A stretch of DNA of 45,682 nucleotides. It comes from Aquisalimonas sp. (lineage in GTDB: Bacteria; Pseudomonadota; Gammaproteobacteria; Nitrococcales; Aquisalimonadaceae). This document shows, piece after piece, positions 40,632-45,682 of this stretch (position 1 is the first letter of the stretch; each line of letters starts with the position of its first letter). The position numbers and the translations under genes were made by a program. The stretch is taken from contig NZ_SKOG01000071.1 of the NCBI RefSeq assembly GCF_007120195.1, positions 1 to 45,682 of the forward strand, written 5' to 3'. The notes beneath the pieces are model-generated. The model saw nothing but the letters and a program-made list of their open reading frames with translations. It did not search any database and had not been told where the DNA came from.

Positions 40632-42611
40632 TCAGGAGGCGGGTAGCAGCTCCGCCCGGGCCAGCGCGGCGCGGATGGCGTCGAGGGCTTCCGGGTTGCT
40701 GAGCGCGGCCCGGTTTTCTTCCTTGGTGTCGCCGCGCAACATCCGGGCGACAGCGAGCTCCACCTTCTTGCCGCTGCGGGTATAGGGGATATCCGCCACT
40801 GCCACGATGTGCCGGGGCACGTGGCGTGGGCTGGCGCCCTCGCGGATACGCTGTCGCAAGGCGCGCTTGAGTTGTCCGTCCAGGTTGACGCCTTCGGCGG
40901 GGACCACCAGCAGCACCACTTCCACGTCACCTTCGACGGGGCGTCCGACGACCAGGCTGTCGGCGATAGCGTCCACAGTCTCTACCTGGCGGTAGATTTC
41001 GGCGGTGCCGATGCGTACCCCGCCTGGGTTGAGCACGGCGTCGGAGCGCCCGTAGATGATCGCCCCGCCGTGTTCGGTGAAACCGATGAAGTCCCCGTGC
41101 GCCCAGACCGCGGGGAAGGTGTCGAAATAGGCCTCGCGGTAGCGACTGCCGTCGGGGTCGTTCCAGAACGCCACCGGCATGGAGGGCAGCGGCTGACGGC
41201 AGACCAGCTCACCCCGGCCCTCCGTGACGGGGTTGCCGTGCTCGTCGAAGGCGGCCACATCGGCACCCAGCATGGGTGCCTGGATCTCCCCGCGACGCAC
41301 CGGGAGGATCGGGTTACTGCCCACGAAACAGCCGCAGATATCCGTGCCGCCGGCGATGGAGCCGAGCAGCACGTTGCGGGAGACGGCCTCGTAGAACCAG
41401 TCGTAGTCCTCGGGCAGCAGGGGCGAGCCGGTGGAGAAGACCACGCGCAGGTGACGCAGATCCAGGGTCTTCCCCGGCTCCAGCTCCGCTTTGCGACACG
41501 CTGCCAGGAACCGCGCGCTGGTGCCGAAATGGGTGAGGTCTTCGCTCTCCGCCACGCGCCACAGCATGCCGATGTCGGGCTCGCCGGGCGAGCCGTCGTA
41601 GACCACCAGGGTCGCTGCCGTCAGCAGCGCCGAGGCCTGCCAATTCCACATCATCCAGCCGCAGGTGGTGAAGTAGAGCAGGCGATCGCCCGCGCGCACG
41701 TCGCCGTGGAGGATCAGCTCCTTGGCGTGATTGAGCAGCAGCCCGCCGGCGCCGTGGACGATGCACTTGGGCTTCCCGGTGGTGCCCGAGGAGTAGAGAA
41801 TGTAGACAGGGTGATCCGGCGGCAAGGGTGTGAACGAGGGGACCTCACCTGCATGGCTGGCCAGGGCCTCCTCCCAGGGCACGAACACCTCGCCCTTCGG
41901 CATGGGCGCCTCTTTGAGCTGGGGGATCACGGCCACGGCGCGCACCGACGGCAGGCGTGCAGCCAGTTCACGGATCTGCTCGGCGCGGTGGAAGCGTTTG
42001 CCACCGAAACCGTAGCCATTGACGGTGACTAGAATCGTGGGTTCGATCTGTCCGAAGCGATCCTCGGTGGCCTGGACGCCGAAGTCCGGTGATGCGGAAC
42101 TCCACACCGCCCCCAGACTCGTCGCCGCTAGCATGGCCACCAGTGTCTCGTGGCTGTTGCAGACCACGCCCGCGACGCGGTCACCTGGCTGTACGCCCCG
42201 GGCGCGCAGCCAGCCCTCGAAGGCGCCCACCTGCGCGTAGAGTTCGCGCCAGGTGGTGCGCAGGGTCTCGCGGCCTTCCGCGAGCGCAACAACGGCCTGC
42301 TCATCGGCGCGCTCGCCGCCGGTGTGGCGCAGCAGGTTGCCGGCGAAGTTCAGGCGCGCCCCGGGCAGCCAGCGGGTGCTCGGCATGGGTTGGTCGTCGC
42401 GGATGCGCTCCCACGGCGTGTCGGCCTGCAGTCCGGCGTAGTCCCAGATTGAGTGCCAGAAGGCGTCCACATCGTCAATGGACCACTGGTACAAGGCGTG
42501 CCAGTTATCGAAGCGTCCGTAGCCGTTGTCCGCCAGCCAGTCCATGTAGCGGGCCATGTTGCTGTTGCGCAACTCCCGCTCGCCCGGTTGCCACAGGATT
42601 TCCCCGGACAT
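40632..42611 (-). CDS. aacS: acetoacetyl-CoA synthetase
   Basis: AacS activates acetoacetate to acetoacetyl-CoA with ATP, letting cells use ketone bodies or PHB breakdown products. The 659-residue adenylate-forming enzyme has the family N-terminus ([19 protein letters not shown]), the P-loop-like [10 protein letters not shown] (about residues 270-279), GWMMWNWQ, the A5 region with GGTDICGCF, the hinge [22 protein letters not shown] and the C-terminal catalytic lysine region ([13 protein letters not shown]). The motif set and length fit acetoacetyl-CoA synthetase better than acetyl-CoA synthetase. bdhA lies 75 bases upstream on the same strand. Confidence 0.94.
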
Positions 42612-42686
42612 CGTTTCGATCCTCCGTCACCGCTGTTGCGATCAACAAGCCCCTGCGGTTGAGCCGCGAGGCGGCTGGCACGATGC

Positions 42687-43469
42687 CTACTGCATGTGCC
42701 AGCCGTGACTCACCACAACCGATTGGCCCGTGAGCGCATTGGATGGGAACGCCGCCAAGTGAATGGCCAGCTCCGTGACGTCCTCCAGCGTGGTGAATGT
42801 CTGATCCACAGTCTGCTTGAGCATCACATTGCGGATGACCTCGTCCTCCGATATGCCCAGCTCGCGCGCCTGCTCCGGAATCTGCTTTTCCACCAGTGGC
42901 GTGCGCACGAAGCCCGGGCAGATCAGGTTGCTCCGCACGCCATGCGCCGCACCCTCCTTGGCGACGGAGCGGCACAGCCCTGCAAGGGCATGCTTGGCCG
43001 CGACATAGGGCGCCTTGAGGGGCGAGGCCTCCTTGGAGTGAACGGACCCCATGTAGATCACGGTGCCGCCTCGGTCACTGGCATACATGTATTTCAACGC
43101 CGCTCGCGTGGTCAGGAAGGCGCCATCCAGATGCACCGAGACGACTTTGCGCCAGTCGGCGAAGTCCAGTTTGTCGATGGGGTCAATGTGCTGAATGCCC
43201 GCATTGGCGACCAGCACATCGAGGCGCCCCCACCGCTCGTAAACCGACGCCACCCCGGCATTGACGGCGTGCTCGTCTGTAACGTCCATGGTCACCGCCA
43301 TTGCCTCGCCACCGGCGGCGAGGATGGCCTGTGATGCCTCCTGTGCCGTCTCAGTCGAGAGATCTGCCACGGCCACGCAGGCGCCTTCCTCGGCGTAGCC
43401 CTGCGCGATGGCGCGACCGATACCGCGGCCAGCCCCGGTGATCAGTGCCACCTGATTTTCCATTCGCAT
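42687..43469 (-). CDS. bdhA: 3-hydroxybutyrate dehydrogenase (SDR family)
   Basis: BdhA oxidises D-3-hydroxybutyrate to acetoacetate with NAD+. The 260-residue short-chain dehydrogenase has the cofactor motif TGAGRGIG (residues 11-18), the NAG motif VANAGIQHI, the catalytic Ser in [15 protein letters not shown] with Tyr and Lys in YVAAKHA, and a C-terminal end WHMQ that is typical of hydroxybutyrate dehydrogenases, as are QHIDPI and VHSKEASP. Its product is the substrate of AacS. It lies 40 bases after dctM, so the TRAP genes and the two enzymes look like one operon. Confidence 0.93.
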
Positions 43470-43509
43470 GGGGCTTCTCCTTTGTAGTTCGCCTCGCAGC
43501 TGCCTACCT

Positions 43510-44835
43510 TTACCCGAGCAGTGCCGTCGGCAGGCCCAGAATCAGCCCCGGGAACAGCGCCAGCAGTACGCAGGTGAACACGATAATCAGGCAGAATGGG
43601 ATTACCGCCTTGTACAGGTCGAGGGTCTGAATCTCGGGTGGCGCAATCCCCTTGAGATAGAACAGGGCGTAGCCAAACGGCGGCGTGAGGAACGACGTTT
43701 GCAGGATCACCGCATTCATGACCACGAACCAGAGCACGTCGTAGCCCATCATCTGCACCACCGGCAGCGTGATCGGGAAGCTGAGCAGCACGATGCCCGT
43801 CCAGTCCAGGAACATGCCCAGCAGGAATACCACCAGCAACATGACCAAGAGAACTCCAATCTCGCCGCCGGGCGCACCCAGCATGACCTGCTGCGCGAAC
43901 TCCATGCCCCCCCCGCGGGAGAACACCCCGGTGAAGGCCGTCGCACCCACGATCACGAACAGAACCATGGCGGTGGTCTTGCCCGCATCGAAGAAGGTGT
44001 TAAAACACGTGCGCAGCGAGCGGTCGCCGAAGATCAGGAACAGTATGAACGCCAGTGCTGCGCCGATGGCCGATGCTTCGGTCGCGGTGGCGAAGCCGGT
44101 GAACAGCGACCCCAACACCCCCAGAATCAGAGCCATGGGCGGGACCACGTACATGGCCAGCATGCCCAGCAGTTGCGGCGTCGTGTACAGCGCGCGCTCC
44201 TCCGCCTCCACGGGCGGGCCCATCTCCGGCTTGAACCAGCAGATCGTCAGCACATAGGTCGCGTAGAGCGCCCCAAGGAGCAGGCCGGGGATGAGCGCGC
44301 CGGCAAACAGGGCCCCCACTGATACGGGCGAGTAGCTGGCCATGAGCACGAGCATGATGCTCGGTGGAATCAGGATGCCCAGGCTGCCGCTCGCCATGAT
44401 GACGCCGGAACTCAGAGACTTGTCATAGCCGAACTTGAGCATGGGGGCCAGGGCAATGAGGCCCATGACGGCGATGGACGCACCAACGATACCGGTGGTG
44501 GCCGCCAGCAGTACTGAGACGATGACCACGGTCAGCGCCACGCCGCCGCGCACGCGCGAGAGAATCAGCCGCATGACCTGGAACATCTTCTGCGTGACGC
44601 CGGATTCGCTGAGAAACCCGGCCATGAGGACGAACAACGGTATGGCCACCAGCACGTAGTTGTCCATGACGCGGCCATAGACATTACTGACAATGGTGCC
44701 GAAGACCGCCGGCCCGGGGCCCAGGTAAGCGGCCATGACGGCGACGCCGCCGAGCACGAAAGGCAGCGGATGCCCCATGAACAGGCCGATCAGCAGGGCG
44801 GCGAACATGAACAGGGTGAGCAGTTCAGGACCCAT
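43510..44835 (-). CDS. dctM: TRAP transporter large membrane subunit DctM
   Basis: DctM is the sodium-coupled transport subunit of a tripartite ATP-independent periplasmic transporter. The 441-residue protein is hydrophobic throughout, with about 12 membrane segments and typical DctM sequence features: [14 protein letters not shown] near the N-terminus, [16 protein letters not shown]-like [31 protein letters not shown], and [16 protein letters not shown] in the second half. The start is three bases past the dctQ stop. Substrate cannot be read from DctM. Confidence 0.94.
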
Positions 44836-45333: not shown

Positions 45334-45402
45334 GAGCCAGAATCTCCCGTACTGACGTTGAGGGCCGCTGGCCTGGACAGCCGGTGCTGCCGATACGGCG
45401 AA

Positions 45403-45437
45403 GCGCGCCCGTGGCCAATGCCCGGCCGCGGGCGCGC
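45403..45437 (-). terminator. intercistronic hairpin between dctP and dctQ
   Basis: A 14-bp stem (45403-45416 with 45424-45437, one G-T pair) and seven-base loop lies 23 bases after the dctP stop. Such hairpins behind solute-receptor genes commonly let the receptor be made in excess of the membrane subunits. No T-run follows. Confidence 0.5.
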
Positions 45438-45459
45438 CCGCCTGTTCGGCCTCAGCCGC

Positions 45460-45682
45460 TTAGAGGCACTCCTCGATTTCCTCGAGGGATGGCAGATTGT
45501 CCATGGTCCGGCTCAGGTTGAACGGCACCGACAGATCCCGCCAGGTGGCGTACTCCTTCAGGTAGCTGATCTGCGAGTGGTAGACCATGGCGTGCCGCGG
45601 GTCCTCGCAGGCGCCCCGGACAATCACCTCATTGGTGGCCTCCTGGACGCGCTGCAGATCCTCCTCGGGGATCTGGGTGATC
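45460..45682 (-). CDS. dctP: TRAP transporter solute receptor DctP, C-terminal part
   Basis: Only the last 73 codons are inside the window; the gene continues past the right edge. I translated this region directly: it is an open frame ending in EEIEECL and a TAA stop. Features such as EEDLQRVQEATNEV, HSQISYLKEYATW and the position directly before dctQ fit the C-terminal helices of a periplasmic TRAP receptor. The ligand pocket is mostly outside the window. Family membership is inferred mainly from context. Confidence 0.75.
   Translation of the reverse strand, partial: ITQIPEEDLQRVQEATNEVIVRGACEDPRHAMVYHSQISYLKEYATWRDLSVPFNLSRTMDNLPSLEEIEECL

Follow-up and report, generated by a model that had tools for sequence, protein, structure and literature searches.

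Two described systems for handling 3-hydroxybutyrate, the monomer of a storage polymer (a plastic) that is widespread among bacteria, stand closest to the locus analyzed here, a run of five genes, dctP-dctQ-dctM-bdhA-aacS, at one end of a stretch of DNA from the salt-loving bacterium Aquisalimonas. This stretch, hereafter the window, is an entire contig (C252) of 45,682 bp from a genome of 4.05 Mb in 292 contigs. In one of the two systems, the hbtABC genes of Ruegeria pomeroyi were reported in 2023 to be required for taking up 3-hydroxybutyrate, as seen in an SPO2573 mutant (PMC10130141); the main text of that paper does not use the word TRAP (tripartite ATP-independent periplasmic). The other is the regulon of HbcR, which passages of two papers describe as having a PAS domain and as regulating (R)-3-hydroxybutyrate catabolism together with sigma-54 (PMC8694187, PMC8657755). 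Related gene names in the literature include PP3074, named as a D-beta-hydroxybutyrate permease (PMC6296734), and PP_3073 and PP_3071, given as hbdH and aacS (PMC13390443).

Our analysis suggests that the five genes of the window form one operon for the uptake and use of D-3-hydroxybutyrate, with a TRAP transporter as the importer and an HbcR-like sigma-54 activator in control. We give this reading a probability of roughly 0.7 and offer it as a supported prediction, not as proof. The genes all lie on the minus strand and run from the contig end inward, beginning with the 3′ end of dctP:

45460..45681, minus strand: dctP, TRAP solute receptor, 3′ end only (73 codons and the stop; the gene runs off the contig); 71-78% identity to the tails from congeners and G033

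45334..45459, minus strand: spacer between dctP and dctQ, predicted to form a strong RNA hairpin (folding energy compared with shuffles)

44839..45333, minus strand: dctQ, small TRAP permease subunit, 164 aa (PF04290, 84 bits, cut-off 28)

43510..44835, minus strand: dctM, large TRAP permease subunit, 441 aa (TIGR00786, 269 bits, cut-off 268; PF06808, 235 bits, cut-off 24)

42687..43469, minus strand: bdhA, D-3-hydroxybutyrate dehydrogenase, 260 aa (PRK13394, 368 bits, cut-off 340; TIGR01963, 310 bits, cut-off 307)

40632..42611, minus strand: aacS, acetoacetate-CoA ligase, 659 aa (TIGR01217, 818 bits, cut-off 521)

An earlier note on this DNA had proposed the same gene calls and an operon-like layout, and both were borne out by the family models, the shared strand and the intergenic gaps, which measure 126 nt (dctP-dctQ), 3 nt (dctQ-dctM), 40 nt (dctM-bdhA) and 75 nt (bdhA-aacS). 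BdhA shares 62% identity over 255 aa with a beta-hydroxybutyrate dehydrogenase of solved structure (PDB 6zzo), and the best PDB match of AacS is an acetoacetate-CoA ligase, 4wd1. Membership of the TRAP class is given by the two permease subunits, DctM and DctQ, each of which exceeds its Pfam cut-off (PF06808 and PF04290, respectively); no NCBIfam model matched DctQ. The 73-aa DctP tail by itself matched no Pfam model; it shows 71-78% identity to the corresponding segment of full-length DctPs from three congeneric genomes (G001, G003 and G004) and from a genome of another family, G033. The full-length G033 orthologue scores 58 bits against NF037995 (cut-off 50) but 49 bits against TIGR00787, below that model's cut-off of 175.

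A scan of positions 40400-45682 returned no sigma-70-like promoter, where shuffling predicts 1.0, and two terminator-like sites, where shuffling predicts 2.4; one of these is on the plus strand within aacS and the other is inside dctQ, and no promoter-like or terminator-like site falls between the five genes. The five genes would be transcribed together. The dctP-dctQ spacer is predicted to fold with -71.7 kcal/mol (z -3.1; 1 of 200 shuffles equally good), whereas the two longer downstream spacers reach z values of only 0.06 and -0.74. This hairpin could be the sort of spacer structure able to raise expression of the receptor above that of the permease. The contigs of a fourth congener, G002, also break within the dctP-dctM stretch, where the window has the hairpin.

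Because the contig ends inside dctP, the activator and promoter of the window's own genome can only be deduced from its congeners. Just upstream of dctP, all four congeneric genomes encode a sigma-54 activator of ~474 aa, and the copies of the other three are 80-97% identical to the G003 copy. A search with family models places this protein among the sigma-54 activators, with no equivalog cut-off reached. The window's own assembly contained no activator above 42% identity.

The contexts of the activator's homologues link it to 3-hydroxybutyrate. Four genomes of one other family in the same class (G116, G120, G112 and G081) each carry one clear counterpart, 52-53% identical over nearly the full length and scoring 441-463 bits, versus at most 246 for the next paralogue. 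In G116, G120 and G112, the counterpart neighbors a GntP-type permease, a 3-hydroxybutyrate dehydrogenase (bdhA) and an acetoacetate-CoA ligase (aacS). We label the permease GntP-type from its 74% identity to a Cupriavidus protein annotated as a GntP permease, whose gene neighbors both an activator of this kind and a gene annotated as 3-hydroxybutyrate dehydrogenase. We take this order, activator-GntP permease-bdhA-aacS, to be that of the HbcR (PA2005) 3-hydroxybutyrate regulon of Pseudomonas. The fourth genome, G081, has a different TRAP set (DctP 31% and DctM 40% identical) followed by the activator counterpart, with bdhA one gene further on (L173, 2798-10201), possibly a third TRAP lineage tied to 3-hydroxybutyrate. 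We also examined eight plasmid-borne homologues (~49-54% identical) among 25 listed and 115 records found. Three lie near an annotated 3-hydroxybutyrate dehydrogenase, one lies near a GntP-type permease only, and the remaining four, all from Azospirillum, lie near neither, two of them within a mannonate dehydratase-TRAP cluster. Taking the four genomes and eight plasmid copies together, the dehydrogenase is nearby in 7 of 12 cases and either the dehydrogenase or the permease in 8 of 12.

A candidate sigma-54 promoter is conserved as well. Upstream of dctP, the sequence TGGCACG-N5-TGC is invariant in all four congener regions, which are otherwise divergent; its GG-N10-GC core presumably matches the sigma-54 consensus. 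In G001, G002 and G003, a palindrome, TCCG-N6-CGGA, lies 100-102 nt ahead of this site and may be where the activator binds. A genome-wide search for the palindrome and promoter combined (gap 62-92 nt) found the pattern once per genome in G001, G002, G003 and G038, each time by the TRAP genes, and found no match in G000 or G004, while the reversed pattern, used as a control, gave 0 matches in six genomes. The pattern was derived from these same sites, and therefore all that the search adds is its uniqueness. In G038, a separate bdhA-aacS operon is preceded by a similar palindrome core and a sigma-54-like site, 167 nt apart and so outside the 62-92 nt range, which suggests that the TRAP locus and the enzyme operon of that genome may be under joint control. 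Among the Pseudomonas-like upstream regions, a sigma-54-like TGGCACG site is present in G120 and G112, and the TCCG-N6-CGGA palindrome was not found.

The precedent for a TRAP transporter of 3-hydroxybutyrate comes from hbtABC (SPO2571-2573), which we recognized as a TRAP set by map position in R. pomeroyi DSS-3, not by locus tag. For the interpolation, the DctM at 2,496,861 was taken as iseM (SPO2356) and the DctM at 2,779,338 as dctM (SPO2626), placing SPO2571 near 2.722 Mb. At 2,721.5-2,726.0 kb, the genome encodes a DctM, a 308-aa DctQ-like subunit and a DctP, with the next TRAP permeases at 2,697 and 2,759 kb, and this DctP is the best match in the genome to a profile built from 13 members of the window's DctP family (164 bits). 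Like the window's transporter, hbtABC would thus be a three-part TRAP system, and its role in 3-hydroxybutyrate uptake is mutant-verified (PMC10130141). The two differ as follows: the Ruegeria receptor is TakP-like and only 24-25% identical to the window-family DctP, the DctQ-like subunit and the DctM of the Ruegeria set (locus C1:2714000-2733000) are unusually long, with 308 aa versus 164 and 784 aa versus 441, and the adjoining regulators resemble MctS and MctR, below those models' cut-offs. Compared by sequence, the TRAP at the hbtABC position is not an orthologue of the window TRAP. The earlier note had held that this substrate class is not generally assigned to TRAP receptors, a statement that hbtABC makes outdated; its gene calls and layout, and 3-hydroxybutyrate among its candidate substrates, fared better. 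The open-licence literature that we searched named no TRAP transporter for 3-hydroxybutyrate besides hbtABC.

Having a full-length receptor in the congeners, we compared its ligand site with those of solved relatives. The nearest of these are TtLacP, TakP and other ketoacid-type receptors, with E-values for the 13-member profile of 6e-51 to TtLacP (2zzv) and 3e-48 to TakP (2hzk), which places DctP in the TakP/LacP monocarboxylate clade. The described ligands of TakP and of a Thermus receptor are 2-oxo acids and lactate (PMC5812351; PMC1839085). TakP holds pyruvate through Arg177, Tyr100 and a cation, which in turn is coordinated by Gln156, Glu214, Glu240 and the Trp215 backbone (PMC1839085). 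These residues align with R174, Y97, E153, E212, Q238 and F213 of the G003 receptor (in TakP order Arg177, Tyr100, Gln156, Glu214, Glu240 and Trp215; the Glu240-Gln238 pairing is taken from the adjoining column of that alignment), all six of which are invariant in 13 of 13 family members. Arg177, Tyr100 and Glu214 are thus retained, whereas Gln156 and Glu240 have become Glu and Gln, an exchange that keeps the ligand set, and Trp215, a backbone contact, is Phe. Another difference from these solved receptors is the presence of bulkier residues at F40 and V97. The G081 receptor, although only 31% identical, has the same exchanged Glu/Gln set, and the receptor at the Ruegeria HbtABC position keeps the TakP set. 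HbtABC serves 3-hydroxybutyrate with a TakP-type site, so this substrate can be handled without the exchange, and any bearing that it has on the recognition of 2-oxo versus 3-hydroxy acids is speculation.

From the activator in 4/4 congeners, its homologues near 3-hydroxybutyrate genes in 4/4 genomes and the monocarboxylate-clade site residues, we infer that D-3-hydroxybutyrate is the likeliest substrate; 3-hydroxybutyrate was one of the acids that the earlier note proposed. In the proposed mechanism, DctP would capture periplasmic 3-hydroxybutyrate, probably in a cation-carboxylate complex like that of TakP, and DctQM would move it inward on an ion gradient. BdhA would then oxidize it to acetoacetate, and AacS would convert acetoacetate to acetoacetyl-CoA. 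The HbcR-like activator encoded just upstream would switch the operon on from the TGGCACG-N5-TGC promoter. The operon may thus work like the Pseudomonas-like activator-GntP permease-bdhA-aacS cluster, with the TRAP transporter replacing the permease. With the HbcR (PA2005) regulon it would share a PAS-containing sigma-54 activator upstream (seen in the congeners), bdhA and aacS; it differs in that a three-gene TRAP occupies the place of the GntP-type permease and in its BdhA, which shares 32-35% identity with the BdhA of those clusters and falls in a different subfamily.

Within the genus, the five-gene order is complete in three of four congeneric genomes (G001, G003 and G004), as the earlier note had suggested looking for. 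The fourth, G002, is consistent with the same order split over two contigs, one of which begins inside dctM and carries bdhA and aacS, while the other (L090) has the activator gene and then dctP, which is cut off by the contig end after 328 residues. Operon DNA identity to G001, G003 and G004 is ~78-79%, and protein identities are 79-88% for DctM, BdhA and AacS and 68-82% for DctQ; because the order is kept at such divergence, it goes beyond chance. We nevertheless set order within the genus aside as proof of function, since pilB-pilC, which adjoin aacS, stay in place as well in the three congeners where they are visible. Outside the genus, a single run in G033, on a 9.6-kb contig without aacS, comprises dctP, an acyl-CoA ligase gene, dctQ, dctM and a bdhA with 73% identity.

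Scored with the 13-member profile at E < 1e-90, the DctP family occurs in at least 7 of 398 genomes sampled across the phylum, at least 19 of 394 from the family containing Ruegeria and at least 50 of 151 from a family containing Halomonas, all lower bounds, as the best 5 candidates per genome were scored in the first two samples and the best 13 in the third. Among the 50 positive Halomonas-family genomes, 47 have one copy, two have two and one, G954, has four, on contigs C50, C10 and C40. We then surveyed the neighborhoods of the best 80 of 315 confirmed candidates, several of them cut by contig ends, for bdhA (at least 45% identity), an aacS-like ligase and the activator (at least 40%). Two Aquisalimonas loci carry the activator; the operon is complete in one of them, whereas a contig end interrupts the other. 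Two loci from Rhodobacteraceae metagenome-assembled genomes have a ligase after dctM. The other 76 (74 with Halomonadaceae-type names, 2 Marinobacter) have none of the three in the DNA examined. Clustering of open reading frames from the 80 loci showed a recurring chromosomal setting among those with Halomonadaceae names, and no substrate-linked partner was recognized.

These 76 unlinked loci weigh against a dedicated 3-hydroxybutyrate operon, and so do several further observations. In G038, one locus has the activator and then dctQ, dctM and dctP, a second locus has bdhA-aacS (each 74% identical), and the activator is only 44% identical to the G003 copy. Neither bdhA (at least 45%) nor aacS lies beside the TRAP at eight plasmid loci examined, two of which have a different acyl-CoA ligase, or at seven further genome loci. 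Other acyl-CoA ligases adjoin this TRAP in G033, G008, G034, G005, Tistrella, Paracoccus liaowanqingii, G443 and the two Rhodobacteraceae genomes; those of G008 and G034 are PRK06187-like, and that of G005 is a ligase-like match. On the regulatory side, 4 of the 12 activator homologues examined have no 3-hydroxybutyrate gene nearby, G004 lacks an exact palindrome and was missed by the combined pattern, and the label HbcR-like is drawn from gene layout. The conserved position of pilB-pilC shows, in addition, that gene order within the genus could be passive, which makes order alone weak evidence. The earlier note had taken separation of TRAP and enzyme genes in relatives to speak against its proposal; they are linked in the congeners where contigs allow and separated in G038 and in those 76 loci.

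Alternatively, the TRAP may import another short carboxylic acid (2-hydroxy, 2-oxo, branched or another 3-hydroxy acid), with bdhA-aacS serving general ketone-body or storage-polymer turnover. Because other acyl-CoA ligases adjoin the TRAP family in several taxa, it may indeed carry other acids, and the solitary TRAPs of most Halomonadaceae-named loci and the 2-oxo acid and lactate ligands of the nearest solved receptors agree with this. We consider this explanation unlikely for Aquisalimonas, where the TRAP genes and bdhA-aacS have operon-like spacing, given also the 73%-identical bdhA inside the G033 TRAP run and an activator tied to 3-hydroxybutyrate genes at 8 of 12 loci if either the dehydrogenase or the permease is counted. 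It is much less probable that acetoacetate is the main substrate, used directly by AacS while BdhA interconverts the two acids: the operon does include aacS, and no sequence feature was found that separates the two C4 acids, but acetoacetate use would not require bdhA, and the passages on HbcR name (R)-3-hydroxybutyrate catabolism (PMC8694187, PMC8657755).

We find it least plausible that the TRAP genes and the enzymes are neighbors without a shared function, held together by regional synteny. That pilB-pilC keep their place beyond aacS in three congeners where visible is what such synteny would produce, and most homologous TRAPs elsewhere, including that of G038, are unlinked. Against passive synteny speak the single strand, the gaps of 3-126 nt and the lack of a promoter-like or terminator-like site between the genes, as do the TRAP-bdhA run of G033, the closeness of TRAP, activator and bdhA in G081 and, before the separate bdhA-aacS of G038, a similar palindrome core 167 nt from a sigma-54-like site.

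Under the 3-hydroxybutyrate operon reading, every kind of part was known already, as was TRAP uptake of 3-hydroxybutyrate from hbtABC; we found neither this gene combination nor this TRAP lineage linked to 3-hydroxybutyrate in the open-licence literature searched. If confirmed, this second TRAP lineage, a distant relative of the first that occurs in at least 50 of 151 Halomonas-family genomes, would help to read 3-hydroxybutyrate use from genomes, and the locus would be a clear case of transporter exchange inside one regulon. A broader and rather doubtful proposal is that TRAPs were recruited repeatedly to 3-hydroxybutyrate (Ruegeria HbtABC, the Aquisalimonas lineage and G081), replacing the GntP permease in a conserved regulon, and that the Glu/Gln exchange shared by both activator-linked receptors may mark a recognition of 3-hydroxy acids distinct from the 2-oxo site of TakP.

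Among the solitary relatives, the dctPQM of Marinobacter gelidimuriae has an aldehyde dehydrogenase-like gene divergent from it (L114, 1142-2680, minus strand), a label given by eye that keeps other short acids open as substrates. In the window's own assembly, the profile search found no DctP of this family at E < 1e-90. Contig C92 (L006/L048), which ends inside a DctP gene, was considered as the source of the missing dctP half and rejected; its product shares only 22-33% identity with the orthologues and relatives and is therefore another receptor, and an enoyl-CoA hydratase-like gene is divergent from it. Directly after the operon, on the same strand, the window carries pilD-, pilC- and pilB-like genes (36565-40434, minus strand; labels by eye). 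Farther on, at 33792-34820 on the plus strand, a single frame resembles, again by eye, a Nudix (MutT) domain followed by a thiamine-phosphate-synthase-like domain.

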